Part shown: one piece after another, positions 4,706 through 30,194 of the stretch
Layout of the letters: each line of letters starts with the position of its first letter
How positions within the stretch are numbered: the first letter of the stretch is position 1
Virus record (IMG/VR): IMGVR_UViG_3300025108_000024
Coordinates: 1-64,000 of that record
DNA from: a virus
Strand: one strand, 5' to 3'
Length of the DNA: 64,000 nt
Notes under the pieces: generated by a model
Seen by the model: the letters and a program-made list of their open reading frames with translations, nothing else
Databases searched by the model: none
Told to the model about the DNA's origin: nothing
Made by a program: the position numbers and the translations under genes

Positions 4706-4708
4706 TTT

Positions 4709-4954
4709 TTATTTTTTAGTTTTTTTTGGACCACTATATACTTCACTACCCAATCGCATTGCTTTAACTACTTTATTAGACATGTCTATACCACCTCCAT
4801 AAGTCATTTTAGATAGTAATTTTTCACCACCAGCTTTCATATATCCCATGTTGTTGCGTACTTCTTTTGATAATTTAGGTAATCCTTTATTATCAAATGG
4901 TATTGCTTTTAGCTCAGCACCTGCTTTGTATTTTTTTGTTTTTCCGTATCCCAT
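4709..4954 (-). CDS. Small basic protein (81 aa)
   Basis: A Lys- and Gly-rich protein beginning MGYGKTKKYKAGAELKA and ending VYSGPKKTKK, with a middle segment KEVRNNMGYMKAGGEKLLSK. No catalytic motif is visible. It lies between a 48-aa ORF and the collagen-like fibre gene with spacings of 1 and 3 bases, so it belongs to the same transcription unit. The C-terminal KKTKK resembles two other small proteins in this block. Function unknown; a virion or DNA-binding role is possible from charge. Confidence 0.7.
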   Translation of the reverse strand: MGYGKTKKYKAGAELKAIPFDNKGLPKLSKEVRNNMGYMKAGGEKLLSKMTYGGGIDMSNKVVKAMRLGSEVYSGPKKTKK

Positions 4955-4955
4955 T

Positions 4956-5102
4956 TTAATAGTCTAATGTTAATGTTGTTATTAATAAAAACACTTTTAT
5001 AGTAGTGTAATCATATTTGTCATCGGGTCTCATTATCTCCCAGCCTAAAGCTAGTCTATCATGTGGCCAATGAAATGCAATTTCTAATGTCCAATCACCC
5101 AT
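4956..5102 (-). CDS. Short ORF (48 aa), coupled to upstream holin-like gene
   Basis: The ATG (5102-5100) overlaps the TAA of the 153-aa gene as TAATG, and its own TAA at 4958-4956 is one base before the next gene's start. The peptide begins MGDWTLEIAFHWPHDRLALG and ends KVFLLITTLTLDY. It fills an otherwise unexplained 147-base gap between tightly packed genes, and the coupled start supports real translation. It has aromatic residues at the N-terminus and a hydrophobic C-terminal stretch. No family is recognised. Confidence 0.6.
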   Translation of the reverse strand: MGDWTLEIAFHWPHDRLALGWEIMRPDDKYDYTTIKVFLLITTLTLDY

Positions 5103-7490: not shown

Positions 7491-7500
7491 TAATTACATA

Positions 7501-7641
7501 ATGAATTCAGAACAAACAACAGGTAATACCCAACTAAATACAGAAAGAGGAAACTTTAATCAAAGAGTTTCTAAATTTATGATGTTGGGTAAATCTAAAA
7601 AAGTCCAGTGGGACAACAAGAGAAGAAACAGAACAATTTAA
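7501..7641 (+). CDS. Short ORF between nrdB and nrdA (46 aa)
   Basis: An ATG at 7501 opens ten bases after the nrdB stop and the frame ends 10 bases before nrdA. The peptide starts MNSEQTTGNTQLNTERGNFN and ends KVQWDNKRRNRTI, polar and then basic. The frame extends upstream to an ATG at 7438 inside nrdB, but the 7501 start fits gene packing better. It is not a glutaredoxin (no CxxC) and not a recognisable ATP-cone remnant. Tight spacing supports translation; the function is unknown. Confidence 0.5.
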   Translation: MNSEQTTGNTQLNTERGNFNQRVSKFMMLGKSKKVQWDNKRRNRTI

Positions 7642-7651
7642 ACAAACCAAC

Positions 7652-12300: not shown

Positions 12301-15026
12301 CTAACTTGTGTTAATACTTGTTCTAAATCAGCATCATTAAATTCAGCAGAACTTACAGCCCTAACAGTTTCTTTTACAAAATTAAAAATAGAGGCATCTA
12401 TTAAACCAGTGGTAGTATCATTACCTTTAAGTTTACGCAAACGGCCTTGTAATGCCAACACTAAATTAGCCTGTGTTTTTGATAATGGAGTATTCTCCAT
12501 TGTACCTAACTCAATTAATGATCTAAACGTTTGACTGTATCTGTCAAAGTTAAGTAAGTAATTTATATAGGTTGGGTCTTTAACATTATTTGGATCTAGT
12601 ATGTAATTAGTATATTCTTTTACATCTTTTATTGCTTGTTGTATAACTCTAGTATACTCAGCCTTAATAGCATCTGGACCATTGGTAGCTGCTATTTCAA
12701 TATTACTAATTGTTTCATTAATAGATTCTATTGTGGCTTGCTTACTTTTATCTAAGCTTACACCACCTTTTATCTTTTCTAGAGCCTCTCTTCTTTTGAG
12801 TAAATCTAATTGAAAATCTTCTAATGCTTGTAAATATATATCTATCTCAGTCTGAGAATTATTATTTTCAGATTGCTTTTCTTCTTCACTTAAAAAGTCT
12901 TCATCTTGAACAGGGTTGTACTCACCGGAATTTTTTCTTTCTTCATTAATTCTAGCTTTCTGCTCATTGGTAGTTTTAGAAGGAATTAATGCATCCACCT
13001 TACCTTGCATTTCAGAATCTTTGTGATACTGTATACCTTCTATATCATATGTGCCATCAAAAGTTTTATTACCTTGCTTATCTTTATTGATGCCAACTTT
13101 AACATGAAAAGTAGATAAAGCCCCACGAGTAGACATAGTATAACCCATGTTCTCTAACATTCTTCTATACAACGCAATTTGTAAATTATGTTGTGCTCTT
13201 GTACTCAGACTTGTTGAATCTGTTTTCTGTTTTAATAAAGAGTCAGAAGCTAATGTAAATGGTTTATCGTAGTATGCAGGATCAGTCTTTAGATAATGCA
13301 TGCTTGTTTTTAAATCAATGATTTGTATTTCTCCAGCTGGTGTTATTACAAGTAAATCTGCAGTACCTGCTAAACCTTGATATGTTACCTTTTGTAGTTT
13401 TCCATCTTTATCTAATACCTCTCCGGTAATTTGCTGATCATCATAAAGTACAACTTGAGGGAGTACAATACCACCATCACCTTTTATACTCTCTAAGTGA
13501 GTTTGTAGATCTACATATACTTTTTCTACCAACTCTGATGAAAGTTCACCCATTTTTCCTTGAAGCTCTTCTATAGAAATACCTGCTGCAATACCATTAA
13601 GTATTGTATCAAAGTCTTGACCTATGGCTAAGTTTAAAGCCACTTCTTCTTCATTAAGCAAAGCACCTTTCATTGCTTTTGTAGCTGATAAATATTCACC
13701 TCCAGTCTCTACGTCATGATATGTATGATCTGAATCATCTCTTACAACAAAGTTTGATGAGTCATAAAACTCAGAGTTTTTAGATACACTTAAATCAGTT
13801 TCTGTTTTTGTAGATGAACGTGCAACATTAAACATGCGTTTAGCAACTTCTTTTTGTGGTCCTTCTACAGCCTCTTCAATTGCTTTTTTAAATGCTTTCT
13901 CGGCATCTTCATTTAAAGAGTATCTAATCTTACCTGTTCTGCGTGTCTCAAATTTAAACTGCATGCCGCTTGTGTTAAGTAACTTTGCAATATCAGATAG
14001 AGTTGCTGTGTCTTTAATATTACCAGCTCTTAGAGTTCTATTAGTTACAAATAGATTAAGATCTTTAATTACATTCTTAAACCATTCTAACAACTCTTTT
14101 ATTTTATCCATGAAACTCTTGGTAGGTTTGTTTTCATACTCTTGTCTAAAGTGTCTGACAAGTGCCTGAGTAACAAGCTCAAGGTTTCTTTCTCTTTCTG
14201 TAAATCCTTTTTCTTTAGTGTAAGCATTAAGTATTTGTTGATTAAGTTCAACAAAATTTAACTTAGCTTCTTTTAGTAAACCATTAAACAACGCAGGATT
14301 ATCTAAATATATAGAATCAATTACTGGGTGTAGTACTTCTTCTATTGCAACATCTCCTGTAATTCTACTACCAATTACATAAGCTTGTCCTTTAAAATAA
14401 AAAGACTTGACATCTTCCCATTTTGCTTTTGATTTGTATTTAGCATCTATGCCATCATATATTTCTTTTGCTTCTTTTCTGCTAACATTATTTATTGTAA
14501 GGTCAGGAAATATTCTGTCTAGGTGAGCTAATATAGCTTTAGTATTACCAGACATTTTATCCATACTTGCAGGTAAAGCATCTTGGGGTCTAAATAAATT
14601 ATCATTAATAACAAACTTAAAGGTCTTGTCTGTTTCTTGCACTTCAACAAGTTGACCAACACCAGTAGGTATATTATTTTTTTGCAACATTGTAATAATT
14701 GCTATTGCATTTCTTTTAGCTATACCTTTATTAGAAGTTCTTGTTCCTTTAATAGTGTTGTTAGCATATATACCACCTTTAAATTTACTTGCTTTTCTAG
14801 TACCAGTAATATTTGATTCCAGAGCACTTATAAAATCTTTTTTCTTAGCAGCTAACATTACTCTTCTGTCACTTCTAGTTTTTAAAGCGTCTGTTACACT
14901 TGGTATATCTTCAGTATTATTAATTCTCTGAAAAGTATTAATAATATTATCTGTATCTATATTAGTCTTGAACCTTTTCTTTAAAGCTTTATACTCTGCT
15001 GTATTTCTATTTGCACACTTTGCCAT
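9345..15026 (-). CDS. Giant virion-type protein with degenerate zincin and PD-(D/E)XK nuclease domains (1893 aa)
   Basis: Residues about 205-345 resemble the zincin-like domain of the neighbouring 5054-aa protein, including the LLEWFKNV helix (312-319), but the metal motif is IEEVLHP (H233; E229 replaces the first His), so it is probably inactive. Residues about 540-660 have a PD-(D/E)XK nuclease pattern: GTAD (D557), IIDLKTS (D571, K573), then QHNLQIALYRRML. A long helical region follows, with FHVK and KRRSG-free charged stretches, and a hydrophobic segment near 1740 (GVVFLVFALSSLLDDLLPDE). Giant multi-domain proteins at this position in crAss-like phages are thought to be packaged and injected. 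The gene starts 4 bases after the stop of the 5054-aa gene. The nuclease could act on host DNA or on phage DNA ends; this is unproven. Confidence 0.75.
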   Translation of the reverse strand: MAKCANRNTAEYKALKKRFKTNIDTDNIINTFQRINNTEDIPSVTDALKTRSDRRVMLAAKKKDFISALESNITGTRKASKFKGGIYANNTIKGTRTSNKGIAKRNAIAIITMLQKNNIPTGVGQLVEVQETDKTFKFVINDNLFRPQDALPASMDKMSGNTKAILAHLDRIFPDLTINNVSRKEAKEIYDGIDAKYKSKAKWEDVKSFYFKGQAYVIGSRITGDVAIEEVLHPVIDSIYLDNPALFNGLLKEAKLNFVELNQQILNAYTKEKGFTERERNLELVTQALVRHFRQEYENKPTKSFMDKIKELLEWFKNVIKDLNLFVTNRTLRAGNIKDTATLSDIAKLLNTSGMQFKFETRRTGKIRYSLNEDAEKAFKKAIEEAVEGPQKEVAKRMFNVARSSTKTETDLSVSKNSEFYDSSNFVVRDDSDHTYHDVETGGEYLSATKAMKGALLNEEEVALNLAIGQDFDTILNGIAAGISIEELQGKMGELSSELVEKVYVDLQTHLESIKGDGGIVLPQVVLYDDQQITGEVLDKDGKLQKVTYQGLAGTADLLVITPAGEIQIIDLKTSMHYLKTDPAYYDKPFTLASDSLLKQKTDSTSLSTRAQHNLQIALYRRMLENMGYTMSTRGALSTFHVKVGINKDKQGNKTFDGTYDIEGIQYHKDSEMQGKVDALIPSKTTNEQKARINEERKNSGEYNPVQDEDFLSEEEKQSENNNSQTEIDIYLQALEDFQLDLLKRREALEKIKGGVSLDKSKQATIESINETISNIEIAATNGPDAIKAEYTRVIQQAIKDVKEYTNYILDPNNVKDPTYINYLLNFDRYSQTFRSLIELGTMENTPLSKTQANLVLALQGRLRKLKGNDTTTGLIDASIFNFVKETVRAVSSAEFNDADLEQVLTQVRDIGVIEYQTGDLATSRDTLLATLDKIYKAKAQEYLDKAQAKELIIRNYANTLAKLDPGTKPQDLYNYMVEFNEKGLPTGFIVQRLGQQYYDMISELRKKAYDEDGNKKVYLEIDNTEEGTAAQLKYNKDLWLAKQEAARFWTAERADDQDNIIDGNFHRYTEEYKKLRAKYESPVVTESGAVIWKKKRTVNEKAWRNFRNNNGKYIDTYFAQKLDGSPTGVVTPGQMWIPNNKFKVANDSAIIKGKKVSMLNSKYDSIMNPTPGDALGKARKEFYSFYVSTMKELVEKLPPSMSEQMVGRIPTIKSNISNRLKEEGSFFTKAYAKLKRKGSDIFNETGTFRTVVTNEKGDVVNSLPIYFTGSLGKQSDLDAINKKIEDLSELRKQGKVSAKYFNEEQGKLLAQLNRIENKATAETLSLDLGSSLLKFNSMAENYEVMSTIDDIVKAFIKVSEKREVLAEKSKNDMVAKIVGKTKDYFKPVGNKEDQIEKNIKKRIKKWASMVYYDNENVTQNALEKMTNGLMQYSSFAYVATNPMGNINNLIIGRLNNTLELIGAKYYKRKAYLQMTAAFNKEQVILKQIKRTGYIIDGKKGIYDPKKPMTKWEGWVDALRMMDSDVEIRETGAVEEGESYVQKAANWFYLLNDSFEYNVQTKQGMAMVASMTAVDEGGNEMNLYDASTFNHTTQKIEVDTKKYKILDRDGNEIEWNTDYRRQFRNNIREVNKRVHGSYARADRMVLQGHFLGKLAIQFKKWVAPLLKNRMRSEYYDENLGWTEGRYRSFAKFMAYSLKNLNQVGNLEKNYREELLKDFKNQAAESVDYGHVDKRVNEKIQNAYQTIGEIGVVFLVFALSSLLDDLLPDEDDDGYIEKRLKNLAKYNVDRAGKELVAFWPGFGTPQAYQLIKNPIASASVLENFAQALWVTFTSGMGAIYYSDEEFAKDKDYVYQRGKNKGKLKAGKEWADILPFLSSIKRFDNLDQNRKFYVD
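13308..13358 (-). other. PD-(D/E)XK nuclease core motif
   Basis: Codes for GTAD-LLVITPAG-E-IQIIDLKTS: D557, then D571-x-K573 after a beta-hairpin, the spacing of RecB/Cas4-type nucleases. Confidence 0.65.
14328..14342 (-). other. Degenerate zincin motif EEVLH
   Basis: Position 1 of the HExxH motif is Glu rather than His (residues 229-233). The surrounding segment and the downstream LLEWFK helix match the active-looking domain in the 5054-aa protein. Confidence 0.5.
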
Positions 15027-15029
15027 AAC

Positions 15030-18000
15030 TTATATTATACAAGATTTAATATTATCTAAAAACTCTTCGTCACTATTGTAGTTCATATCCGGATCATTTC
15101 TCTTTGCTATGAAGTCTTCCAAAGTTACAATTTTTTGCTCTTTTAGCCTAGCCAATGCTTCTGCATTTAAGTCTATGTTTTGATTCCAAAAATCTGTAAT
15201 CTCTTTATACTCTTCACTTACGTCTGATTCTTCTGATTCTTCTGCTCCAAACAAACTATCAGCAAATGCACCCATACTTATAACAGGGGCATTACTCGTA
15301 TCAACATCTTCAGTTTCTTCAACTTCTTCAGTTTCTTCAACAGATTCAGTAAAAGATATATCTATATCACGGTCTTCTAGTTGCTGCATTGTTACTTCTT
15401 TGATTGGAACTAACTCTTCTGAATTGCTTTCAGAGAATGTATTTAAATCAATAAACAATTGATTACCTCTATAAATAACTTCAAAGCCTTTAGCTCGTGC
15501 TTCTGCTAGAACATCTTGTACTTCTTCTGAGAAGCCTATCATATCATTATCTATAAAACCACCTTCTTCATCTAGACTTGAAACAAACTCTTTAACTGTA
15601 TTATAACTAGGACGTGTAAAGAATGTACTATCAAACATAAAACCTATTGCGTTTTGGTAGATTGAACCTTGCATATCCATTTCTTCATATATACCTGCAT
15701 TACCTTCTGTAATACCTGTACTAGTATTTACAAGTTGTTGATCTTGTCTTACAGGACCATATGCTTGAACAAGCTTAAAGTATCTAGTTACTTTTTTTGT
15801 TCTGCTTCCTCTTTTAGTATCACCATTTGTAACTCTTAAAATAACCGGAAGTTCTACCACCTTAGTATTTGATCCTGACTTAACAGATATAGTTTTTACA
15901 ACAAAACCTGCCTTCTTTAGAACTCCTTCATTACTCATTAATTTATCTCTGCTTGTAAATTTCTTTGCACCTTTCTTTCCAGAATTTAAATTCTTTTTTG
16001 AAAGAGAGTCTGGTAATTTTCTTACAGTCTGTACTTTATCAGATGGAGATAAACGCACTATGCCTTTATATATATCTACAATTAATTTTTTTGAACCACC
16101 TGAAAAATCCATAGAAACTGGTAATGTCCTAATTGCAGCTTTACTTGCAGAGTTTGGATCTGACTTATCATTCATGATACCATTCTCTAAACTATAACCA
16201 AACTCTTGTCTAAGTGTTGAGTCTATATAGTTATATATTTCTCTAGAAGATTTTTTTAGATTTTTAACTTCTTCTTTTGTTAATAGGACTTTAGGAAAAA
16301 CAACCTTTTTGTTAGCATTTTTGATTTCTTCTATCTGCTCATCAAACCTTTCTACAAAGTTATTTAAATCATCCGCGTCATAAAAAGTTGTTAGATCATA
16401 TTTTAAAGTTAAACCTACTGTATTATCCATTCCTCTTAAACCGCTTGCACCTATCTCTTGTTGATTATCACTAAAGATGTAAATTTTTTCAGGATTGTTT
16501 GCAGCAATTTTTGAAGTTACTGATGTAGCAAGTGCTTCTGTTTCTTCAAACAGCTGACTATAAAGTTTTACATTTTTCTTTTCATCTAAAATACGTGCTG
16601 ATGGAGAAGACTGTAAATAACCTATTGTAAACTCATTTATTAATTGATCAAAGTTTACACCAAAGTAATTTTCAAATAAATCTTTTCTAGAATTTTTCAT
16701 CATATTAAAGACTTCTTCTGTAGACTGTGTAAAGCCATCTAAAACTTGTGGAGTAATTGCATCCAATAAGGTACCTGCTCCAAATTGTAAGCCGTCTTTA
16801 ACCATCATATAATGAATTATATGTGTAGCTTCAGTTCTTCTTTCTGAGAATAATTCCATAAAGTCAGTCTGCACTCTAAGTCTATCAAGATCACTTCTCT
16901 TACCAAAAGTGTTAGACTCTAAAGAATGAATTCCTTTTTTATTATCTAACTCTCTTGCATTTTCATTAAATGAGAATTCATTTAAAAATTCATTATTTGG
17001 AAACTCTTGTCTTAACTCATCAACCAAAGTATGTATGTTTAATGATGTACCTGCTTGTGGATATAACATTGCATTACTTAATGATGATAATGCTACAGAC
17101 TGTCCTCTTTTCTCAAGCTTATGCATGTAAGCTTTAATTGTTAAGTAGGACAATAAATCATCTGATACTTTTTGATAATCTTCACCTCCAAATATTTGAG
17201 GATTTGCAGATAAATTTAAAGCTACCGTTTTTAATATCTGATTAAATGTTTTTGTTCTACTTAAAAATATATTAGGTAGTATTCTTCCTTCAAAGTGAGA
17301 TGCAACCTTATATAAATTAAATTGCCAAGGTTTGTTCTTAACTATTTCTCTAATATCAATTGGTAATGGCGCACCTTTGTAAATAGCAGCATCAAATTCA
17401 GCATCACTTAAATCAATACCCATGTCTCTTAGGTCATTCAGTCTATCATCAAAATCAACAAAATTACGCCCAAATCCTTTTGAAAAATTCATCAAACCAG
17501 CCATATTACCAACAAAACCTTTTAAGTCATGAGCTGTAATAAATTGCTTAAGTATAGAATATAAAGCTACTGCTTGATTATATTCTAAGTCAGCAATAGG
17601 TGTGTCTGATAATTTTGGATTAGCAGCTTGTTCATATAGTATTTGATCTGTAACTCTAGTTACATCAGATTCTATACCTTCAAATGTTTTTACTAAAGAA
17701 TCCATTATATCAGTGATTCTTTTTCTTATACCTCTTCCTGCACCAATAGTAGTTTGAAAATATTCATCTCTTATGTATGCATTATTTACTAATAAAATTG
17801 AAGTCTTAATTGGTACACCTAGTTTAGTCAAAGTAGTTACTACACTAAGTGCATCTTTATTTAGACCCAGCTTTGCTGCTAAACGTTCTTTAGCATTATC
17901 TGTCATTGCCGTAATTAAAGCAGAAATTATATATTGAGTTCTTTCCCCCTTTACTTCTACTTCTACTTCCTTACCTTTTATTTTTTTCTTTATTACTCTT

Positions 18001-21000
18001 CTTTCATACTGTTCTCCAAAATTATCATAGTCAATACCGTTAAAAGATATTTGACGTATAACCTGTCCTTTTACAGAAACCTTTCTCATTTTAATTTTAG
18101 CTTCACCTAAAACATTTAAATAAAGGTTAGGTAATACAGCTGCTCCAATAGAAGCTGCTCCCTCCTTATTGTTTGAGAATGCTTTAAATTTACCAAGTAA
18201 GTTATCTACATCTAAACCGTCTTCTCTAAAAAGCTCAGCCAATTCAGGCAATTCTGTTTGTATATAATCTCTAACCTCAATTAAAGGATCTAAAACAGCA
18301 GGGTCATATGCAATAGGGTTAACACCATCTTTTGTTGAAATGGTATTACCTTCATTAGACCATAAAGCAAACTTGTAATCTAATATCTGATTATTTAAAG
18401 CAGCTTCATAAGGCATACCTTTTTTCTTTACATGTGCATCAAACTTCTTTTGTGTTGTAGGAAGATTTAATACTTTAAGTGCTCTTAAATAATCTTCTGA
18501 TAAACCTGTAAGTTCTTTAAATTCATTTAGCTCTTCTTCACTGTAAAGCATAAAGTCTTGGAAGTTCATTTTAGCTTTTTCAAAAGCATCAGCATAAATA
18601 CTTTTACCTTTTATGCCAGCTTCTTTTATGTAATGTATGTAATCTCTAAACTGATCTGTTTTAGATCTTGATAGGTCACCATACTCTACATAATTATTGT
18701 CTCCATCTTTATACCATTCTTTTATATGTGTGTATACTTTATCAATATCAAAATCCGCTCCTGATATTTCAATTAACTCTTTTGAGAATATTGCAGTTGA
18801 TCCATAAAATGCAGGTAAAAAGTCTACAAATTTAGTTGCATAAGCAGAATGTTTATCTTGAGATGGAATACGAACAGCAAATGCTTTTTGTACAACGTCA
18901 GGCATTTTAATATTAGTTCCATCAAAGTCTTCTGCTATTTCTGCAAAGTGTGCAGGTGCTAAACCTTCTGAATATCTTTGACCCGTAAAGTTACCTTTGT
19001 TGTCATACTCTTTTAAATTGTGTCTTAGTTGATCTAACACAACAACGCCTTTACCACCAGAGTTTTCTAATGCTGCTTCTAAACCTATTAGTTTACCGTC
19101 TTCATCTGCTCTTATTTGTATAGCAGGTGGGTTATCTAAAAAGTTATAATACTTCTCTCTAATTATTTCATGCTTATCAGGATTACCATTTTCATCAACA
19201 GAAAATACTCTTCTAACAACGTTAACGCCAAAGTCTGATGCAAGTGCTAAGGATAAACCAGGAGATTTTTCAGACATTGTATCTTTAGCAAAATAACTTA
19301 AGAATAATTGCTGAAAGCTTTTTTGAACCATTGGGTTATTTAAATCATAACCGTTTTCAGGATTAAAATATTCAAGAACATTGCTTGATGCCTGACTTGC
19401 TTTTAATGATTCTGATGCAAACTTTAAAAAGTTTTCTAAGTCTACCGTAAGTTTACCTTGTTGTTTGCTTAGATTAAGCTCGTTCATTCCAGCCTCAACT
19501 GTAAAGTTTGTAATAAGATTTACTTTACCAAAATATTTTAGATTAAGTCTATTGGTTGTTGCTCTGTGGTATTGTTCCCTTAATTTACCAATAGGTATTT
19601 TAGTTTCTACACCAAATGCTTTTACATAAACTTCTTCAGAATCTAAAAGCTCTGATGAAATAAGACTTTTCATCTGAGTAGGATCTGTAATTATAACTTT
19701 GTTTGATGGGTTAACTAATTGTAGACCCATAAACTCAGCCTTAAGATCTGTAGTTACAACAGCATTATCATTAGGATTAAATTCAGAAAAAGCCTCTTCA
19801 TAAGATAGAGTATTCTTTTTCATCATTTTAGATGCACTTAAAGGTGCAGCAATACCCAATGTATTATTTCCTTGCTCTTCTACTTTCTCTAATCTTAGTC
19901 TAAGATTATGTAGTTTTTCATATTGTGGTTTAGGTGTACCATCTACCTTCGTTGTTAATTCAGGGGTAAGTACTACTGCTGACATTTTTAAGAATGTCTG
20001 ACCGTCACCATATACTAATTTTAATGAATTAAATACAGCACCTTCTTTTATGTAACCTCCTTTACCAAACAGTTCTTCTGCATTAACTCTTTCACCTTTT
20101 TCAATTCTATTAATTAAATCAGCTTTTCTTGCATCCAATTGTGCAAAGCCAAATAACATGTGTCTTAATGCTTTGGTTGTTATATACATTTGAGCATCTG
20201 CTCTTTCTCCTTTACCTTTGGCGTATGTACGGTCAAACTCTGGATCAGTAAATGATATAAGGGATATGTTATCATTTGTATGGTTAACACCTAACCTTTC
20301 ATCAAATACAGGAGAGCTTGCACTTATGTGAGATGCGTTTTGCATCTTAGCTCTTTTAACTTTATCAACTGCATCCTTAAGTGATATAGCTTGATCACCT
20401 AGTATTAATTGATTTAATGCTTTTGTATTTAACCAATCATTAAAAAAGATCTGCATTAAATTATGACGTTCATTGTCTCTTATAAGATTTAACTGTTCCA
20501 TAGCAGCATCTCCTTGACGATTCCCTTCATCATTTTCAATACCGTTCTTTATATCATCAGTTATCATACTTCTCACAAGAAAGTTATCTAGAGTTTGATC
20601 AAACCTATCAAACTCTTGCATAAGTCTTTCATTCAAGACTTTATTAAACATATCTAATGACATGTTCTCACTTAAACTTTCAATTGCTTCTTCTAATGTT
20701 GCATCTGTATTTTCTATTGCAAAGGTTTCTAACGCTTCTTTATAGTTAAACTCTAAGCCACTATATTCTTCTGCCGTAAAGTTTTCTACAGGAACTAGTC
20801 TATAACCATATTTGCTTTTATTTCTTCCACTAGTTTTTTGACCACCTCTTAAAAATTCAGCAATTACTGCAGTGTCAACCCACAAGCTTACGTCACCTAC
20901 TTTAACTTTATTCTTTGTTAAATACTTTGCTTGTTCTTTCTTATCTAAACTCTCATACTCTTGTTGATTAAGAACAGCTGAACCAAGACTAGCAACAATT

Positions 21001-24000
21001 GATCCTATATTACCAGTATTAACTTCACTGATTTGACCCAAAGAAATTAATTGAAATTCTCTTTCACCCTTTTTACTTTTTACAGTAACTCTAGCATTAG
21101 AGTTTTCAACAGTCAAACCTATTGCTTGAGCTTGAGCTTGACTAACATATACATGATCTTGCTTGCCATCAATTATTCTTTGTGACGCATCATCGCTGAA
21201 TTTAGGATCATTAGCTTCAACTCTATTTTCTGCATCTTGTTGGCTTTCTAATAAAGTTGCTGTGTCATTAAACTTGTATGCACGTCCACTATAATCATCT
21301 TGAACTGCACCATTCTTAGAATTGTATCCCTCTAGTATGGCTTTGTCTTCATCTTTTTTTGCAGCCTCTCTTTGTATTCTTTTAAATTCTCTTCTAATTT
21401 CTCCTAAAAATAAAGAAGTAGTCACAGATGTTAACTCTACTTTTCCTTCTTTTACTTCAACTGTTTTAATTACTGGTAAAGCAACTAAGTCACCTGTGTT
21501 AGAAGCTTCTATAACTCTAATTAATACAGGAGCAAGAGCTGTTTCTACAACCTCCCCTTCTTGGTTTACAAACTCAACTGTTTTATTTTGTTGCTTGTAT
21601 GTTTGATATTGGGATAAATATGTATTTATTAATGTAGCTACAAATTCAGGTCCTTTTAATCCACCATATGTTTTACTAAGTTTATCAGCACCAAGACCTC
21701 CTTCATCACTTAAAGCATTTTCTGTAGAACCCGACATAAAACTTGATTTTGTACCGGCTACCCTTAACACTTGTAATCTGTCTTGTTCTGAGAGAGCTCT
21801 AAATGCTTCACTCTCTAATAAAATATTTTCTAAGTTATAACCTTCATTTGCTGTTTCTAGCTCAGATAAGAAAGAATCATCATTCATCTTACTGATCATC
21901 TTAAGGTGTAGTGTTTGTTTTTGATGAGCATAAACAAAGTTACCTTCAGGATTTAAGAAAACACTTTGACCTATTGTTTCATCAAACAATGCATTGTTTT
22001 TTGCTAGCTTTTGTAAGCGTGATTTTATACCACCTTTTCTATTAAATAAATAAGCTGAAGTTCTACGCGCTTCTTGAGTTAATTTTAGTTGTACAACCAT
22101 TTCTTCAAGTTGTGCAATTTCAATTGGTTCAGCATTTTTGTTATTAAGAATAAGAGCCTCTAATTGTGAATCTCTGTTTTCAAGATTACTAGCAATAGAG
22201 AATTGTATATATGCAGGTGAAAACTTAATACCTACTGTATCATATATATCATTAGAAAGTTTTTGTGATAACTTAGCTAAAGTTACAGCATCTTTTATTT
22301 TTGTTATATTGTCTGTATCTAAATTAAAACCAAGTGCCTGCAATGCATCCACTGCTTCATTTAAAGCAAACTGATTATCTCTTATTTTTTTATACTTCTC
22401 ATTATGTGCTTGTTTCCAAACATCTATTTGATTAGATGCATCATCTCTATTGGCAGCATTATATATTGCTATCTTTTTCCCTTTTGCTCCTAAGTTTGTG
22501 TGGTAAAATAAGTAATCAACTCTGTAGTTTTCTAAAGCAACATTAATTTCATTAAAGAAAATTTTATTTGTTACCGCATCTATAAGCTCTTCATTGGTTG
22601 ACTCCATTACAAATTCTTTTGTAAAGGTAGCACCTCCAAGCTTGTTAAATATTTTATCAACTACAGCAGCTGTTTGTACATTTCCTATTGAAAAACCAAC
22701 CATGTTTCTTAAAATACTAGAAGCATCAGTTGTATTCTTTACAGACTTAAGTAAGCCATTGTATGCACTTATATAATCAACAGGTGTATATATCTGTTGA
22801 CCATTTAATAACTTAGTATTACCAAACTCATCAGCTTCAATAATTTGTGTTGTTCCCAAGAAAGATCTAAATGCAGTAGGTAGACTATTAAATCCACCAA
22901 TCATAGATTGATCTTTATCCCATTGAGATGTGTTTCTTAAACCTTCCTCATACTCAAGTTCTTCGTTCTGATATTGCTCATTTAAAATTTGTGTATCAAA
23001 TACAGATATATATTGCATTGTTGCTTCAACTGCATTCTGTTGATACTCAATCTGTTGAGTCAATGTTTCTTTTGTTGATTCACCTATTATACCACCTAAT
23101 GCAGTATACAGTTTAAACAACTTATCTATTTGAGCACCTGACTTATCAGCATTATGTTCCCCAACAGGATTATATAAATCTCTAAAGTCTTTTATTGTGT
23201 CTATTAATACTTCTTGTCTTGATTTTCCTTTTATATCTTTTAAGACTTTTGGATCTGTAGTTGCTAATTTATTTAAATAAGCAGCTCCCATAGTTCTAAT
23301 AACTTTAGTAGCAGTATCAGGATCAACAAACTTTTCAGCAAACCCTCTTTCTAGTTCTACTTTTTCATAAGCTAACATTTTGTAAGCTTCTAATGCAACA
23401 CCCGAACTTAAACCTGTAGTAAAGTTGTTGTTTATTATACCAGCACCTTTATATTTACCAGCATCTATATTTTCAAATAAATCATTAAGTTCATTTTTTG
23501 TAAACCTACGCGTTACACCTTTGATCCACTCCAGTAATCTGTTAAAGAATGATTTTATTGTTGAAGATGTTTTAGTGCTTCTTGGGTTTTTCTTAAACTT
23601 TTCAAACTCATCAGCCATGTACTCTTCATAATATTCTCTTTCTAAAGCAGCAGCTGACATTTTTTGATACTTTGCAGCCTTGCTTCTAAACTTGCTAAGC
23701 TCAACAGTAAAGTCTTTACCTTCTGATCTAAGCTTTGCACGTGCTTCTTTCTTAGCTATTGCTAAGTATTTATTTTGTTCTTCTGTAGTTAGTAATAATC
23801 TAAACACAGAGTGGAATGCTTCATGATATCTAAACCCTTGTTCTCCCACGTATATAGTACCTCCTGTTGCAACACCACCAGCTAAATTTGTCAGGTTGGT
23901 TACAAACAGACCAACAGGTACTCCATTAACTTTTAGTCTATCAGCTATTTCACTTATATCTTTTATAGTAATAAAGTCAGGTAAATTATTTTTTGCCCAG

Positions 24001-27000
24001 TCCATAAACATCTCTATAGACTCTGTTTCTTTATTAGTAAATCCTTCAGTTATAATTTTACCTGCAAAACTATTTACAATTCTTTCTGCCTTCGTAAAAG
24101 CCTTTTTAAGTTTCTTAAACTCTGCATCCTTTCCATTTGCAGTAAATTGTATATACTCAACACCAGTAATCTCACCAGAATCTACTTTACTTTGTAGCTC
24201 ATTAGTATAATTATCTAAAGCTTCTTTGGCAGCGTTTCTTGCTTCTAATGCTTTTTCATATTCATTATTATCTGATGATTTAGTTCTTCTCTCTAATGTT
24301 GCTACTAAAGTTGATATAGTAGTATCTTTTACTTTCTTTACAACTGCTTCTCTTTTACTAAGAGAAATTCCTTTTGCAACTTTAATTGCAATTAGTTTTA
24401 AATCATCTAAAGATATTTCTTCAAAATCATCGTTTTCTAATTCATCAAACTCTTCTTGAGACATTGCATTAACACCAGCTGCATTAGGTGTTGCTTCATC
24501 TATTGCTTGATCTAATTTACTATCTTTCTTTTTACTTTCTTCAAGTGCATCTTCTTCTGCTTTTATAGTATCTGCAGCTCTTTGACCTTCTTGATAATTA
24601 ACAATATCTTCATGTGATACTTCATACTCTACATATGAAGTATTAAAAGATTCTTCTTGAAAATTAGTATTAGTAAGAAGTAGTATTGCTTGAGGTGTTA
24701 CTGTATCAGGTATGTTTTGTCTAAAGGATGCTTTGGATATTGAAAGCCCTTTCTTACTAATTTTACCATCTTTTTTAATTCCCTTTTGTAATAGTTTTAC
24801 AATACCATCAAACGTAGTATCTCCTTTTAGCTGAATAAAACTATTATGTATAGTTTTATCTGCAACAGTATCTATTATTTTAAATTCTATATTACCACGT
24901 TGATTTACTTTTAATTCTGCATTGTAGCCTGACTTCAAATAAATATAAAATGAATTCATTGTCTCACCTTCATTAAAGGTATCATTAAAAGAAACAGACT
25001 TTGTTCTTACGGTGCCATCAACATCTTCTAGATTTTCTTCTTTTGTCTTTTCTACTTGCTTGACAATTTCTTCTAAAATTTCTGATTGAGATTCCTCGGT
25101 TAATGCTCTTGCTTTTAATGGAGCAAACGCTATTGTACCGTTTGGTAGTTTTATTACAGAGTGATATCTATCAGTTTTTCTAGTCTTTTTTAGATAATCC
25201 ATTAAGGTAGTACCATTAGCAAGAGTTTTTTCTGATAACTCTTTCTGTACTTTATTTCTTAATGCTTTATGTTCATCAGAACCTACAGGATAGTTTGTTC
25301 TAATTGTTACAACTCTATTTCTTTTTTTAGTTTGAGGGTCTCTTCTATATGTATAATCTATTACAACTTGTTCTCCATCATATGTAGAGTTAGTTAATTG
25401 AGATACATTGACGTTAAAGTTTTCTGTATCATATAAATACTTCATGAAGAACTTTGTACCGTCTACAACATCTGATAAAAGAACCGAATCACCAAGCTTA
25501 ACTTTATCAAGTATGCGTTTTCTTAATACTTGTTGTTTAGCTAAAGAATATAATGCTGACTTTGGATTGTGAAAGAATTGTTTAAGTTCTGAATTAGATC
25601 TACTAAATATGTTTTCTATAACATTTCCTGACTCATCTAAAAATCTATAATTACCAGAAGGTAATTGTATAGCCATATCATTTAAAGTTACATCTTGGAA
25701 ACCTGTCTCTTCTAATGCTTTGTTTATTTTATTACGTGTCTCTGGATTAGTAAAGTTTAAATTAAAAGAGTAGTCTTCTTTTACTATTCTTATTCTTTTA
25801 TTTTCTTTTTTACTTATCTCATCCTTAAATACCTTTTTAAAATCACCAGGATTATTTTTAGTAACAGTTAATTGTATCTCTTGTAATTCTTCAGGAGTTA
25901 ATTGCTGTAATATAACCTTCAATGCTTTTTTTGCATCTTCTGTTGAAAGCTTATCTGTTATACCTAATGCATAAATACCAAGTATGTTTTTAATAGTTAA
26001 CCTTGGAGTATCTTTAGCTACTAATGTATCAGAAAAAGTTTCTTCTAGAATATTATATTCAACAAAATCTGCTGCACTTACTCTCTTAGCTGCTTTTTCT
26101 CTAGATTTAGTTGTTCTATATTTATCTATCTGATCTTCAGGTAAAATAAATAAAGTACCATCTTCTTTAACTTTAGCTGGTGTACCTAAAACAATAAATC
26201 TTCTACCGTCTTTATCTGTAACTACATCTCCGTAACGTAATGTTTTTACATTCTCACCTATACCAAAAGTAAAAGTATCTGTATCTGGTATTGTATCTAA
26301 AAGTTTTCTAAATATTTTATTTTTAGCTTCTTGTATTGTAGAGTATGAGCTTCTTATATTTTTAGGATCTATTCCCGCAGCTTCATAAAAATTTTCTGGA
26401 ACAGGGCTACCGTCTGCAAGCTCAACAACATAACCAGTTGTCTTTTGACCTTTTACATCCGTAACAACTTTTCTAATTCTTAAACCTCCTTTTGCATCAA
26501 CTATGTCCTTACGCTCCTTATTTTTTGTTGTAGCTGCTTTGCCTTCAATAAGTTCAAAAGTTAAACCAAGCGGCTCTCCCATACCAACAACAAGCTCTCT
26601 TACTGTAGGATCATCTTTATTTTCTAATATCCATTCTTTAAAACCTTCTCCAGATTTTATAGTAACACCTAAGTTATCTTGAGTTGGATCTAATGATTGT
26701 ACCCATAATGCTTTAAGATCATGTAGGATACTTGCAAGTTCTTGAGCCTCTTCAGTTTTTTGCCACTGTTCTAGAGTTAATCTTTTTTTACCAGATTTTA
26801 CTAGTTGACCATTTACCACAGCCAATCTTGATAATAAAATATTTTTAGCAAAAGAGTTTACTTTGTTATCACTGTTAATTACAGTAGCTGCTTTTTCTTT
26901 AACCTCAGCATCTTCCTCTACAGCATCTTTTATCTCTTCTGTTTCAGCATCCTCAGCTGTTGGATTAGTAAGCTCAATATAATTATTTTTAATCCTTGCT

Positions 27001-30000
27001 ACATTTATAAATTTTGCTGGATCCTGCATAGGATCTAACGGACCATACTCTGTGTTAAAGGTTTGTAAATTTTCTATATCACCAGTTGCAATAAAGTCTT
27101 CAACTTCTGATGGATCGGGTGTTATTCCTAATTCATGTAAATCATTAATGACTTGAGATACATCATCTTGATTCATTGCATCTTTAAGCTTTATTCTTTG
27201 AGTATTTACATCCTTATCTTTAAGATACTGATCTTTTATAAACTTGTAAGTTCTTTCAGTTAACTCATCAAATACAGTTGGGTTATTTAAAACCTCAACT
27301 GCTTTATCATACATTTTAGTTCTATATTGTAATTCACCATAGTCTACTATCTGTTTTACAACTTCATTAATTTTAGACTTATCAGCAAATATATTATTAT
27401 CTTCTGCTAAAAATTCAATGTATTCCGTAAAGGATTTTGTAAGCTTAGATGTTTTTCTTTTATCAAACTTCTGTGTTAGGATTCCTTCTTTTTTAGATAC
27501 CTGAGTACCCATTTGATACTTTAATCCAGAACCTTTTGTAGTAGTTTGATTATTGGCATCTGTAAAAACTTGAAAGTAGTTTTCTAATAACTCTTTCTTT
27601 TTCTTTTTCTTGTTTAATAACTCAACATCTTCTCCTTGTTCAAGATTTGCAATTTCATTAGCAAGTAGTTTTATTTCACTTCTTACACTCTGTGGGTCTA
27701 ATAATACTGTAAGATCACTTGCTGCTAGTTTAGAAACTTTAGATGATCCATCTTTACCAACTGCATATATAATATCTTCTATTGTTAATGCATCAAATAT
27801 GGATTGCATTCTCTTTTGAGAATCCATAAAAGATTGTTTAGTAAACATTTTTAAATATGTTGCATGTTCCCAAGCTTGCTGCTTGAACAGCTCTATAAAA
27901 TATTCTCTTTCTCCATACTTGTATTTATTTACAGAGTATGGATTAGGGTTATCATCTCTTTCCTTCTTATATGTTTTTTCTAAGTCATAAGACTTTTCAA
28001 CTAAAGCATTAAATTGTTTCCTTGTTTTACCGGACTTTATTTCTTTCTTTAGATGTGGATATGCTTCTGTTAAAGCTTTATCATCAAGATTAACTATTGC
28101 TTTTATTTGATCACGGAATGTATCTACCATGCCATTGTTAATAGCTTGAACTAAAGTATTAAATTCAAGAAAATCTTGATTATCTTTAAAGTCTAATCTA
28201 TCACCTTCATAATTAGCAGTTTGCATTCCTTCTGCACCTTGCTTAGCTTTAATAAAGTTTAAGCTTTCTACATCAAAAATTGATTGCCCTTTCTTAGCTT
28301 GTAAATTTAATCCTTCATTAATTGTTTTAACAAGATCATCAAGTTGCTTTTCTCTTTCTTCTCTCTTTTTTGCAAATTCTTCTTTATTAAAAACACGGTT
28401 GAATGTATCAGGTGCAACATTATATATAAGTTTGTTTCCACCACCTAATATACCACCTGTTGCAAAACCAGACATAAATACTTCAAAACCTTGTGCAGAC
28501 ATTTGACTCTGTATTGCACTATCTAAAGAAGCATTATATAAATATCTTTTATTAGCAGCTGGATCTTTTATCAAACCAGAATAATAATCAACAACACCAA
28601 CCTGCATTGCTTCTTGATAAAGTTCCTGAACACCTTCTGATATGTTACCAGCAAAAAATCTTAATGCACCCTGTGCTCCAAACCTTACATAATCACCAAA
28701 GTTATAAACCTCAGATCTCTGTCTCCAACCTTCTTTTGTCCAAAGTGATTTTTTTCTTCCTACTACATTCTCTTGTATCTTACCATTCTTTACAAACTTT
28801 TTAGTTTGCATTATTTTTTTACCAGCAGCACCAAGATTATTATCTAAAACTCTCCTAAGCCCACGGCTAAATGGAGTTACCATTGCACCAAAAGTAACTC
28901 TGTTTGTTAAATAGATTAGACCTGCATTACCTTTAAGCGTTGTAAAAGCACCAGCGGCTGCTTGTTCTTGTATATCTTTTAACTGTTTTTCTGATAAATC
29001 AGTATTACCATTTTTAAACTGTTCTATAGCCATACCATTGCTTACTAAATCATTGTAAACAAAACCAGCTTCTAACCTAGACTCATCTAATGCTAGATCA
29101 ATCATTCTCATATCTCTATAAAAACCACCAAAACCTGCAGCAGCTTTACCAAACTTACCCAAGCCATTAGCTACATCTTTTGTTCTATCAAAAGATCTTA
29201 ATGCTTGCATTGTTTCAGGTAGAAAGATTCTACCAACAACATTTTTCCCAGTTCCAAAAGCAGTCCAAAAATCTCTTGCTTTTTCTGCACTTTTTAAAGT
29301 CTTTACCATTTGGTAACCACCATTAAACATTCTACCTACAGAAGTAGCATTACCCATTTGCCTCATTGTACGAAGCATCTTTGCAAATCTTCCTGCATTA
29401 TAAACAGATCTTGCTGCAGCAGCAGTACCTGTAGCAGCCGCTGCCGCACCAGATACACCAAATGTAGCTGGAGTTGCTGCAGTCAAAGCAGCTGTTGCTC
29501 CCCACATTGCTAGCTCTTCAGCTGCAATACTACTCATAATACTTATACTGTAAGCACTATTTAAAGCAAATCTATTAAATGCACCACCAAAACCTTCAGA
29601 GCTATCATTACCTATTCTCATAGCTTCAGCCATGTCTACTGCAGCTTCTGTATCTGGATCACTGTCAAATAAATCAAAAACACCTTGGTTGTTATTGTCA
29701 AACAGGGCATCGGATAAACCAAAGAAAGAAAAACCTGGAGCAAAGTTTTTTCCAAATTGACCCATAGATCTTGAAAAGTTATCTACCCAATCAGAATTTT
29801 CATTATAAAACTCTTCATTATTTCTTGTAGGACTAAAGCCTAATCTATGATATTGAGGATGTGCATAAAAGTGATCAAAGTTTGTATTTCTAATACTAAA
29901 TGCTTCTCTTGGTTTTACATCTCTTTGTGTTGGTTTATCAAAAACTTTGTTAGCAGCAAACCAATCATCAGGATCTATTGCTGTTTGTGTTTGTGATGTA

Positions 30001-30194
30001 GCTTTATTAGTAACAGGTGATCCCATATAAGGAGCAATCGTTGTTACCATATCAAGATATTCATCATCAACTGACATCAAGTAATCAGGATCATAACCTA
30101 ATTCTAATATATCTGCTGGCTCCATTGAGGCAGAGTTGTCTACTATATTGTTAGATGTAGGTTCACTTAATGGGCTATCAAAGTTGTTCTCCAT
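15030..30194 (-). CDS. Giant virion RNA polymerase protein with zincin metallopeptidase domain (5054 aa)
   Basis: The largest gene of the window, about 15.2 kb without interruption. Residues 211-265 are hydrophobic and Ala-rich (AMWGATAALTAATPATFG), a possible membrane-entry segment. HEAFH at 2124-2128, with a plausible third ligand in EEYMADEF (2190-2197), is a zincin metallopeptidase signature. SGADFDIDKVYTH at about 3811-3823 contains D3814/D3816/D3818, the DFDID magnesium-binding motif of the single-chain two-barrel RNA polymerases of crAss-like phages (phi14:2 gp66 type). The C-terminus is acidic (about 4955-5030). phi14:2 gp66 is about 2180 aa, so this protein carries some 2900 extra residues. 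By analogy it is injected with the genome and transcribes early genes. It is preceded by the cargo genes and followed by the 1893-aa gene. Confidence 0.85.
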   Translation of the reverse strand: MENNFDSPLSEPTSNNIVDNSASMEPADILELGYDPDYLMSVDDEYLDMVTTIAPYMGSPVTNKATSQTQTAIDPDDWFAANKVFDKPTQRDVKPREAFSIRNTNFDHFYAHPQYHRLGFSPTRNNEEFYNENSDWVDNFSRSMGQFGKNFAPGFSFFGLSDALFDNNNQGVFDLFDSDPDTEAAVDMAEAMRIGNDSSEGFGGAFNRFALNSAYSISIMSSIAAEELAMWGATAALTAATPATFGVSGAAAAATGTAAAARSVYNAGRFAKMLRTMRQMGNATSVGRMFNGGYQMVKTLKSAEKARDFWTAFGTGKNVVGRIFLPETMQALRSFDRTKDVANGLGKFGKAAAGFGGFYRDMRMIDLALDESRLEAGFVYNDLVSNGMAIEQFKNGNTDLSEKQLKDIQEQAAAGAFTTLKGNAGLIYLTNRVTFGAMVTPFSRGLRRVLDNNLGAAGKKIMQTKKFVKNGKIQENVVGRKKSLWTKEGWRQRSEVYNFGDYVRFGAQGALRFFAGNISEGVQELYQEAMQVGVVDYYSGLIKDPAANKRYLYNASLDSAIQSQMSAQGFEVFMSGFATGGILGGGNKLIYNVAPDTFNRVFNKEEFAKKREEREKQLDDLVKTINEGLNLQAKKGQSIFDVESLNFIKAKQGAEGMQTANYEGDRLDFKDNQDFLEFNTLVQAINNGMVDTFRDQIKAIVNLDDKALTEAYPHLKKEIKSGKTRKQFNALVEKSYDLEKTYKKERDDNPNPYSVNKYKYGEREYFIELFKQQAWEHATYLKMFTKQSFMDSQKRMQSIFDALTIEDIIYAVGKDGSSKVSKLAASDLTVLLDPQSVRSEIKLLANEIANLEQGEDVELLNKKKKKKELLENYFQVFTDANNQTTTKGSGLKYQMGTQVSKKEGILTQKFDKRKTSKLTKSFTEYIEFLAEDNNIFADKSKINEVVKQIVDYGELQYRTKMYDKAVEVLNNPTVFDELTERTYKFIKDQYLKDKDVNTQRIKLKDAMNQDDVSQVINDLHELGITPDPSEVEDFIATGDIENLQTFNTEYGPLDPMQDPAKFINVARIKNNYIELTNPTAEDAETEEIKDAVEEDAEVKEKAATVINSDNKVNSFAKNILLSRLAVVNGQLVKSGKKRLTLEQWQKTEEAQELASILHDLKALWVQSLDPTQDNLGVTIKSGEGFKEWILENKDDPTVRELVVGMGEPLGLTFELIEGKAATTKNKERKDIVDAKGGLRIRKVVTDVKGQKTTGYVVELADGSPVPENFYEAAGIDPKNIRSSYSTIQEAKNKIFRKLLDTIPDTDTFTFGIGENVKTLRYGDVVTDKDGRRFIVLGTPAKVKEDGTLFILPEDQIDKYRTTKSREKAAKRVSAADFVEYNILEETFSDTLVAKDTPRLTIKNILGIYALGITDKLSTEDAKKALKVILQQLTPEELQEIQLTVTKNNPGDFKKVFKDEISKKENKRIRIVKEDYSFNLNFTNPETRNKINKALEETGFQDVTLNDMAIQLPSGNYRFLDESGNVIENIFSRSNSELKQFFHNPKSALYSLAKQQVLRKRILDKVKLGDSVLLSDVVDGTKFFMKYLYDTENFNVNVSQLTNSTYDGEQVVIDYTYRRDPQTKKRNRVVTIRTNYPVGSDEHKALRNKVQKELSEKTLANGTTLMDYLKKTRKTDRYHSVIKLPNGTIAFAPLKARALTEESQSEILEEIVKQVEKTKEENLEDVDGTVRTKSVSFNDTFNEGETMNSFYIYLKSGYNAELKVNQRGNIEFKIIDTVADKTIHNSFIQLKGDTTFDGIVKLLQKGIKKDGKISKKGLSISKASFRQNIPDTVTPQAILLLTNTNFQEESFNTSYVEYEVSHEDIVNYQEGQRAADTIKAEEDALEESKKKDSKLDQAIDEATPNAAGVNAMSQEEFDELENDDFEEISLDDLKLIAIKVAKGISLSKREAVVKKVKDTTISTLVATLERRTKSSDNNEYEKALEARNAAKEALDNYTNELQSKVDSGEITGVEYIQFTANGKDAEFKKLKKAFTKAERIVNSFAGKIITEGFTNKETESIEMFMDWAKNNLPDFITIKDISEIADRLKVNGVPVGLFVTNLTNLAGGVATGGTIYVGEQGFRYHEAFHSVFRLLLTTEEQNKYLAIAKKEARAKLRSEGKDFTVELSKFRSKAAKYQKMSAAALEREYYEEYMADEFEKFKKNPRSTKTSSTIKSFFNRLLEWIKGVTRRFTKNELNDLFENIDAGKYKGAGIINNNFTTGLSSGVALEAYKMLAYEKVELERGFAEKFVDPDTATKVIRTMGAAYLNKLATTDPKVLKDIKGKSRQEVLIDTIKDFRDLYNPVGEHNADKSGAQIDKLFKLYTALGGIIGESTKETLTQQIEYQQNAVEATMQYISVFDTQILNEQYQNEELEYEEGLRNTSQWDKDQSMIGGFNSLPTAFRSFLGTTQIIEADEFGNTKLLNGQQIYTPVDYISAYNGLLKSVKNTTDASSILRNMVGFSIGNVQTAAVVDKIFNKLGGATFTKEFVMESTNEELIDAVTNKIFFNEINVALENYRVDYLFYHTNLGAKGKKIAIYNAANRDDASNQIDVWKQAHNEKYKKIRDNQFALNEAVDALQALGFNLDTDNITKIKDAVTLAKLSQKLSNDIYDTVGIKFSPAYIQFSIASNLENRDSQLEALILNNKNAEPIEIAQLEEMVVQLKLTQEARRTSAYLFNRKGGIKSRLQKLAKNNALFDETIGQSVFLNPEGNFVYAHQKQTLHLKMISKMNDDSFLSELETANEGYNLENILLESEAFRALSEQDRLQVLRVAGTKSSFMSGSTENALSDEGGLGADKLSKTYGGLKGPEFVATLINTYLSQYQTYKQQNKTVEFVNQEGEVVETALAPVLIRVIEASNTGDLVALPVIKTVEVKEGKVELTSVTTSLFLGEIRREFKRIQREAAKKDEDKAILEGYNSKNGAVQDDYSGRAYKFNDTATLLESQQDAENRVEANDPKFSDDASQRIIDGKQDHVYVSQAQAQAIGLTVENSNARVTVKSKKGEREFQLISLGQISEVNTGNIGSIVASLGSAVLNQQEYESLDKKEQAKYLTKNKVKVGDVSLWVDTAVIAEFLRGGQKTSGRNKSKYGYRLVPVENFTAEEYSGLEFNYKEALETFAIENTDATLEEAIESLSENMSLDMFNKVLNERLMQEFDRFDQTLDNFLVRSMITDDIKNGIENDEGNRQGDAAMEQLNLIRDNERHNLMQIFFNDWLNTKALNQLILGDQAISLKDAVDKVKRAKMQNASHISASSPVFDERLGVNHTNDNISLISFTDPEFDRTYAKGKGERADAQMYITTKALRHMLFGFAQLDARKADLINRIEKGERVNAEELFGKGGYIKEGAVFNSLKLVYGDGQTFLKMSAVVLTPELTTKVDGTPKPQYEKLHNLRLRLEKVEEQGNNTLGIAAPLSASKMMKKNTLSYEEAFSEFNPNDNAVVTTDLKAEFMGLQLVNPSNKVIITDPTQMKSLISSELLDSEEVYVKAFGVETKIPIGKLREQYHRATTNRLNLKYFGKVNLITNFTVEAGMNELNLSKQQGKLTVDLENFLKFASESLKASQASSNVLEYFNPENGYDLNNPMVQKSFQQLFLSYFAKDTMSEKSPGLSLALASDFGVNVVRRVFSVDENGNPDKHEIIREKYYNFLDNPPAIQIRADEDGKLIGLEAALENSGGKGVVVLDQLRHNLKEYDNKGNFTGQRYSEGLAPAHFAEIAEDFDGTNIKMPDVVQKAFAVRIPSQDKHSAYATKFVDFLPAFYGSTAIFSKELIEISGADFDIDKVYTHIKEWYKDGDNNYVEYGDLSRSKTDQFRDYIHYIKEAGIKGKSIYADAFEKAKMNFQDFMLYSEEELNEFKELTGLSEDYLRALKVLNLPTTQKKFDAHVKKKGMPYEAALNNQILDYKFALWSNEGNTISTKDGVNPIAYDPAVLDPLIEVRDYIQTELPELAELFREDGLDVDNLLGKFKAFSNNKEGAASIGAAVLPNLYLNVLGEAKIKMRKVSVKGQVIRQISFNGIDYDNFGEQYERRVIKKKIKGKEVEVEVKGERTQYIISALITAMTDNAKERLAAKLGLNKDALSVVTTLTKLGVPIKTSILLVNNAYIRDEYFQTTIGAGRGIRKRITDIMDSLVKTFEGIESDVTRVTDQILYEQAANPKLSDTPIADLEYNQAVALYSILKQFITAHDLKGFVGNMAGLMNFSKGFGRNFVDFDDRLNDLRDMGIDLSDAEFDAAIYKGAPLPIDIREIVKNKPWQFNLYKVASHFEGRILPNIFLSRTKTFNQILKTVALNLSANPQIFGGEDYQKVSDDLLSYLTIKAYMHKLEKRGQSVALSSLSNAMLYPQAGTSLNIHTLVDELRQEFPNNEFLNEFSFNENARELDNKKGIHSLESNTFGKRSDLDRLRVQTDFMELFSERRTEATHIIHYMMVKDGLQFGAGTLLDAITPQVLDGFTQSTEEVFNMMKNSRKDLFENYFGVNFDQLINEFTIGYLQSSPSARILDEKKNVKLYSQLFEETEALATSVTSKIAANNPEKIYIFSDNQQEIGASGLRGMDNTVGLTLKYDLTTFYDADDLNNFVERFDEQIEEIKNANKKVVFPKVLLTKEEVKNLKKSSREIYNYIDSTLRQEFGYSLENGIMNDKSDPNSASKAAIRTLPVSMDFSGGSKKLIVDIYKGIVRLSPSDKVQTVRKLPDSLSKKNLNSGKKGAKKFTSRDKLMSNEGVLKKAGFVVKTISVKSGSNTKVVELPVILRVTNGDTKRGSRTKKVTRYFKLVQAYGPVRQDQQLVNTSTGITEGNAGIYEEMDMQGSIYQNAIGFMFDSTFFTRPSYNTVKEFVSSLDEEGGFIDNDMIGFSEEVQDVLAEARAKGFEVIYRGNQLFIDLNTFSESNSEELVPIKEVTMQQLEDRDIDISFTESVEETEEVEETEDVDTSNAPVISMGAFADSLFGAEESEESDVSEEYKEITDFWNQNIDLNAEALARLKEQKIVTLEDFIAKRNDPDMNYNSDEEFLDNIKSCII
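18741..18755 (-). other. RNA polymerase catalytic motif DFDID
   Basis: Residues 3814-3818 of the 5054-aa protein. Matches the DxDxD active-site motif of crAss-like phage virion RNA polymerases. Confidence 0.85.
23811..23825 (-). other. Zincin motif HEAFH
   Basis: Residues 2124-2128 of the 5054-aa protein, following GGTIYVGEQGFRY and preceding SVFRLLLT, a typical strand-helix zincin context. Confidence 0.7.

Follow-up and report, generated by a model that had tools for sequence, protein, structure and literature searches.

A 5,054-residue phage protein in which a gp47-like module precedes a predicted crAss-type RNA polymerase

Described giant polymerases and the window protein

Giant RNA polymerase (RNAP) genes encoding up to ~6,000 aa have already been reported in crAss-like phages (PMC10136315). 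Phage phi14:2 possesses a two-barrel single-chain RNAP, gp66 (2,180 aa; PDB 6VR4), encoded within the gene order 67-66-65, the annotation of these genes being derived from virion MS/MS; gp66 and gp67 are specified by separate genes, and gp67 lacks an HExxH zincin and matches the phicrAss001-type protein gp47 over the N-terminus of gp67 only. In phicrAss001-type phages, gp47, gp49 and gp50, which in crassviruses belong to the transcription block, are the products of three separate genes, that of gp47 being located on the strand opposite to gp49 and gp50, and all three proteins have been detected in phicrAss001 virions (PMC10172136). Fused forms are found in the Suoliviridae, where one coding frame of 4,272-5,801 aa carries both a zincin and a DFDID motif (cr50_1, 4,774 aa; cr1_1, 4,551 aa; cr114_1, 4,272 aa; cr52_1, 4,464 aa; cr130_1, 5,801 aa), three of these giant ORFs containing in-frame stops under table 11, which implies the use of a recoded stop. 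The Intestiviridae fuse otherwise, gp50 being joined to a gp49-like C-terminus (4,098-4,388 aa) with gp47 separate. Additionally, gp96 of Thermus phage P23-45 is a 5,002-aa tape-measure protein fused to an RNAP; this virion RNAP (vRNAP) fusion has been proposed to be coupled to DNA entry, and the same has been suggested for crAss-like phages (PMC10770324). The vRNAP of coliphage N4 (gp50, ~3,500 aa) is likewise a giant chain with an HExxH-bearing domain, and a beads-on-a-string ejection has been proposed for it (PMC12633501).

The window (the whole 64,000-nucleotide stretch of DNA analysed here, taken from a viral record of 92,305 bases) carries on its minus strand, at 15030-30194, one uninterrupted frame of 5,054 codons, while the plus strand across this interval contains many stops. 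A prior reading made from the letters alone (the sequence-only reading) had described such a frame with DFDID at residues 3814-3818, naming no strand, and had put it at over twice the length of phi14:2 gp66; both statements hold, DFDID occurring once in the protein and the length ratio being 2.3. Comparison with a 56%-identical homologue yielded dN values of 0.24-0.54 and dS values of 1.1-2.2, dN being well below dS in all 500-residue tiles. Furthermore, a scan of IMG/VR returned at least 80 relatives, and one frame exceeding 4,000 aa surrounds the motif in 70 of the 80 listed metagenomic loci (one near-identical to the window), this frame being cut at its 5' end by the fetched stretch in many of them. 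A chance frame is therefore excluded: the coding frame is real and is under purifying selection along its length.

The window protein resembles the Suoliviridae ORFs in being a single frame, in the spacing of its motifs (in the Suoliviridae an HEAFH/HEAWH zincin about 1,440-1,590 residues before DFDID), in being followed by a further long gene (in cr50_1 gp49-like by position and by inclusion in the gp49 profile) and in its genomic location behind the tail genes. However, it is very distant from them (about 25% identity over short stretches), and a long supported branch lies between them in the RNAP tree. The phi14:2 order 67-66-65 matches the order N-terminal module plus RNAP, then partner gene, in the window, and the gp47 blocks and zincin, the gp50 core and gp49 of phicrAss001-type phages all have collinear equivalents here. 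In P23-45 gp96 the RNAP is N-terminal and its partner is the tape measure of a very long tail, whereas here the RNAP is C-terminal and its partner a podovirus-type cargo protein; the N4 vRNAP, for its part, has the single-subunit right-hand fold rather than the two-barrel fold, and a different domain order. Fusion is already known in described gut crAss-like phages and the length of the window protein is not unique; the protein is a well supported further case of a described fusion, from which something new and useful can be inferred about what the fused part does.

Domain organisation of the fused protein

Profile comparisons identify residues about 2400-5054 as the predicted equivalent of gp50 and phi14:2 gp66. 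The N-terminal part of this polymerase spans residues 2430-3180 (20655-22907, minus strand, as are all features of this protein), residues 2727-2942 matching gp50/gp66 514-713 (E 1.1e-4), and it includes a variable insertion region at residues 3000-3150 (20745-21197; occupancy ~0.25). This region is an insertion hot spot, at which one relative (L084, 6082-9287) holds ~1,070 extra residues together with two further HExxH motifs. The predicted two-barrel core, residues 3183-4145 (17760-20648), was matched by the gp50 family (E 6e-41) and by phi14:2 gp66 alone (E 6e-17), and a tblastn search with residues 3399-4398 matched 44 phage records over the DFDID region, those with names being crAss-like. 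A core profile of 59 sequences (residues 3180-4160) had 6VR4, the phi14:2 virion RNAP, as its sole match in the PDB (E 4.6e-17); this profile was required, as the single sequence gave no PDB match, while PHROGs and Pfam alone gave no sign of an RNAP or of gp47. When the AlphaFold2 model of the core (pLDDT 84.4, pTM 0.85) was compared with the PDB by Foldseek, 6VR4 ranked first (E 2.8e-24, TM 0.61 by query length), followed by the QDE-1 two-barrel RNAPs, and among viral models (BFVD) the leading matches came from Virus NIOZ-UU157 (42% identical) and from crassviruses, cr50_1 and phi14:2 among them. The assignment to the crAss/phi14:2 type made in the sequence-only reading is thus borne out by profile and by fold.

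DFDID (residues 3814-3818; 18741-18755) would supply the metal-binding aspartates of the catalytic barrel, and it lies in the G-[SA]-DFD-x-D context of crAss/phi14:2-type virion RNAPs. D3814, D3816 and D3818, as well as K3403 (19986-19988) and K3456 (19827-19829), are invariant in all 64 clade members aligned; when the window protein was aligned with eight crassvirus references, the two lysines, a few Gly, Pro, Arg, Ser and Glu positions and DFDxD were invariant (9/9). Both lysines are situated on strands of the first beta-rich unit, which precedes the DFDID unit, and the order of these units suggests that they belong to the second barrel. Double-psi barrels around residues 3700-4100, with conserved lysines in the second, had been anticipated from the letters; the 6VR4-like fold and two family-invariant lysines were indeed recovered, but these lysines lie ~360-410 residues before DFDID and not at 3700-4100. 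Behind the core, residues 4213-4502 (16689-17558) represent the C-terminal part of the gp50/gp66-like polymerase (gp50 family, E 5e-4) and residues 4559-4657 (16224-16520) a DUF7831 domain (Pfam PF25176, E 4.2e-7, above cut-off). The stretch bearing this domain has an occupancy of ~0.37, i.e. it is present in about one third of relatives, and seems mobile between sites, being C-terminal here and located before the core in L032 (7700-8101).

Residues 1-2260 (23415-30194) appear, from collinear profile matches to phicrAss001-type gp47, to be the fused equivalent of this crassvirus cargo protein. Their most conserved block, residues 361-762 (27909-29114), is rich in Gly, Ala and hydrophobic residues and has an EGxQE motif at 520; residues 418-762 match gp47 311-650 (E 2.7e-10), and an EGxxEE motif is common to the window protein and gp47 (~370 in gp47). 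A second block, residues 1344-1458 (25821-26165), matches gp47 1231-1330 (E 1.1e-7, single-sequence comparison), and the order of the EGxxEE block, the middle block and the C-terminal zincin is that of Crassvirales gp47. No gp47 match was detectable for residues 1-360, 760-1340 and 1460-2060, nor did the N-terminal half return a match when phages were searched by tblastn. The gp49 profile, which serves as a control, matched no segment of the 5,054-aa protein. Since the gp47 and gp50 profile matches are collinear and gp49 matches the next gene, the protein is predicted to be gp47 plus gp50, with gp49 separate and downstream. The earlier suggestion of a peptidase and cargo fused to the polymerase is accordingly substantiated by homology to gp47, zincin included. 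A transmembrane search revealed no strong segment in the N-terminal half; the sole hydrophobic stretch of the window protein is weak and belongs to the RNAP part. A hydrophobic stretch near 220-270 is present in six of eight homologues checked, and a membrane role is therefore not claimed.

The predicted zincin metallopeptidase domain, residues 2061-2253 (23436-24014), corresponds to the C-terminus of gp47 (gp47 2089-2243, E 1.4e-15). Its zinc-binding motif HEAFH occupies residues 2124-2128 (23811-23825), compared with position ~2150 in gp47 proteins of 2,341-2,518 aa, and a candidate third zinc ligand is found at E2190-E2191 (EEYxADxF; 23622-23627), in a second well-predicted helix of the AlphaFold2 model. 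H2124, E2125, H2128, E2190 and E2191 are unchanged in 64/64 clade members aligned. A zincin profile matched the PDB weakly (Pro-Pro endopeptidase 6FPC, E 0.0056), and the zincin model, poor overall (pLDDT 62), had no match in a PDB fold search. The domain between the two modules is presumably a catalytic peptidase, for which a host envelope protein or its own chain are candidate substrates. Relatives of this zincin are also present on contigs binned into bacterial MAGs (L101-L104; Pseudomonadales, Campylobacteraceae, Sphingomonadaceae, Thioalkalivibrio); these are probably phage contigs and carry no evidence of a host.

Distribution of the fusion and role of its N-terminal part

HEAFH is found about 1,460-1,940 residues before DFDID in nearly all of the 70 loci with such a long frame, and the loci without the fusion are mostly explained by contig ends and frame breaks. 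Three apparent exceptions were rejected: L042 has a frame break that is absent from its near relative L043, L071 is broken like L042, and L084 possesses a zincin that has been displaced by a large insertion. L032 is a true outlier, the part upstream of its polymerase core being without a match. As judged from these predicted frames, the listed loci show that fusion is the rule within a large crAss-like clade from metagenomes and not a curiosity. In the RNAP tree the long branch mentioned above parts the window clade from all references, with the fused Suoliviridae on the far side together with unfused phi14:2; the fusion may have arisen twice or been split later, the long branches of this tree allowing either. 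Public names on giant fused RNAP frames, such as 'DprA-like', 'DNA helicase' and 'nuclear pore complex protein-like' (L098, 953-18358; L009, 10788-25112), are misleading, and the latter two hide the identity of the Suoliviridae ORFs. For giant proteins publicly called 'DNA helicase' or 'hypothetical', a domain map is now fixed.

The gp47 and gp49 modules also occur in phages whose records yield no polymerase. In Leptolyngbya phage Lbo-JY46, a 1,552-aa protein matches the N-terminal module (residues 361-754, E 5.4e-11) as well as gp47 (E 1.6e-10), and the C-terminus of a 2,748-aa protein matches gp49 (E 3.5e-25); similarly, Cellulophaga phage phi17:2 encodes a gp47-like protein of 1,957 aa (E 7e-10) and a gp49-like protein of 1,914 aa (E 4e-22). 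Two RNAP core profiles found nothing in the whole Lbo-JY46 and phi17:2 records, and found the core in 4/4 crassvirus controls. The epsilon group, which includes phi17:2, was already known to be without the transcription block (PMC7886860); what is new here is that two RNAP-less relatives retain the N-terminal module of gp47 (gp47-N) and the C-terminal module of gp49 (gp49-C). The job of these modules consequently needs no polymerase, and the presence of gp47 and gp49 in phicrAss001 virions makes delivery the obvious candidate. Both modules probably act in ejection, not as subunits of the polymerase, which suggests that names such as 'RNAP-associated protein' and 'RNAP subunit' mislead, and their persistence without the polymerase gives a direct test of virion RNAP delivery.

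We consider it likely that the 5,054-aa ORF encodes a single-chain two-barrel DNA-dependent RNAP of the crAss/phi14:2 gp66 type with gp47 fused ahead of it, and that this chain is packaged, ejected and couples entry to early transcription. Homology and collinearity, the predicted fold, the invariant catalytic residues and purifying selection constitute the basis obtained here. Extrapolating from relatives, the fused chain would be housed in the capsid close to the portal and ejected (as is proposed for the N4 vRNAP) through the tail, N-terminus first and partly unfolded; the gp47-like module would engage the envelope or the ejection channel, and the polymerase would follow, refold in the cytoplasm and transcribe early genes during DNA entry. 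Fusion would set a 1:1 ratio of the two parts and tie entry to transcription. It is not generally required for this process, since gp47 and gp50 are encoded on opposite strands in phicrAss001-type phages.

The N-terminal half could instead be a true accessory subunit of the polymerase, with a role in promoter recognition, as a clamp or in initiation, a reading favoured by gene adjacency, by the fusion with the catalytic part and by the public labels of gp47 ('RNAP associated protein fused to zincin protease' or 'RNA-polymerase subunit'). We regard this as unlikely, because the gp47-N module is present in the two phages that yield no RNAP core, and because its conserved block is Gly/Ala- and hydrophobic-rich and matched no Pfam transcription family. 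That the polymerase part is an inactive relic or has another role is very improbable: the core is only 17-25% identical to known crassvirus RNAPs, but catalytic residues invariant in 64/64, a strong fold match and purifying selection argue against it.

The product may also be a polyprotein that is processed close to the variable linker (about 2260-2420), either by its own zincin or by a different phage protease, yielding a free polymerase chain like those of phi14:2 and phicrAss001. The position of the zincin at the module boundary, its intact catalytic residues (64/64), the poor conservation of the linker behind it and its place as the gp47 C-terminus in unfused phages are all compatible with such cleavage. 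However, phages that encode gp47 and gp50 separately retain the zincin too, which implies that it serves some purpose besides severing the two, and the linker has no conserved motif resembling a cleavage site, nor a PP motif in any sampled row; cleavage of this kind therefore seems doubtful. A more elaborate 'entry-transcription machine', in which an ancient gp47-N ejection module joined the RNAP and holds it at the inner membrane during DNA entry until its own zincin cuts the linker after ejection and releases the RNAP, is somewhat less probable still.

Neighbouring genes and affiliation of the phage

The next gene (9345-15026, minus strand) encodes the 1,893-aa partner, the C-terminal part of which is gp49/phi14:2 gp65-like (gp49 family, E 2e-24; BLASTP, E 1.7e-20). 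Its first half bears a PDDEXK-like motif (GTADLL...IIDLKT), and PDDEXK domains have been reported in transcription-block proteins of crAss-like phages (PMC7886860). Upstream of the giant gene, a virion structural protein (41514-46586, minus strand; PHROG virion structural families, E 2.6e-52) sits where crAss phages encode the stabilization protein and fixes the block's gene order. Among upstream genes, those encoding 1,030, 839, 757 and 1,100 aa had no match to the cargo proteins gp45 and gp46, and a 188-aa gene (48149-48715) in the expected IHF position matched no Pfam or PHROG family.

TerL (tblastn against crassviruses, E 8e-41), the portal (PHROG, E 6.4e-95), the major capsid protein (Pfam Crass_capsid, 5.6e-32) and the tail ring proteins (CrAss_Ring_2, 9.5e-20; CrAss_Ring_1, 2.9e-7), the capsid and ring matches being over cut-off, all match crassvirus families, and on these grounds the phage is placed in or beside the Crassvirales, as a putative deep lineage given that its TerL shares only about 25% identity with those of named phages. 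By capsid and portal, the closest named relatives are Lbo-JY46 (portal 34%) and the Cellulophaga phages phi17:2 and phi4:1. The crass-type capsid and portal of Lbo-JY46 (L105, L106), which according to its record comes from a cyanobacterium, hint that the hosts of the wider group extend beyond the Bacteroidetes. Additionally, the 1,100-aa virion-block protein (38212-41514) has LysM and peptidoglycan-binding domains and is a candidate wall-passage protein, and ribonucleotide reductase small and large subunit genes are located at 6510-9277 on the plus strand, convergent with the RNAP block.
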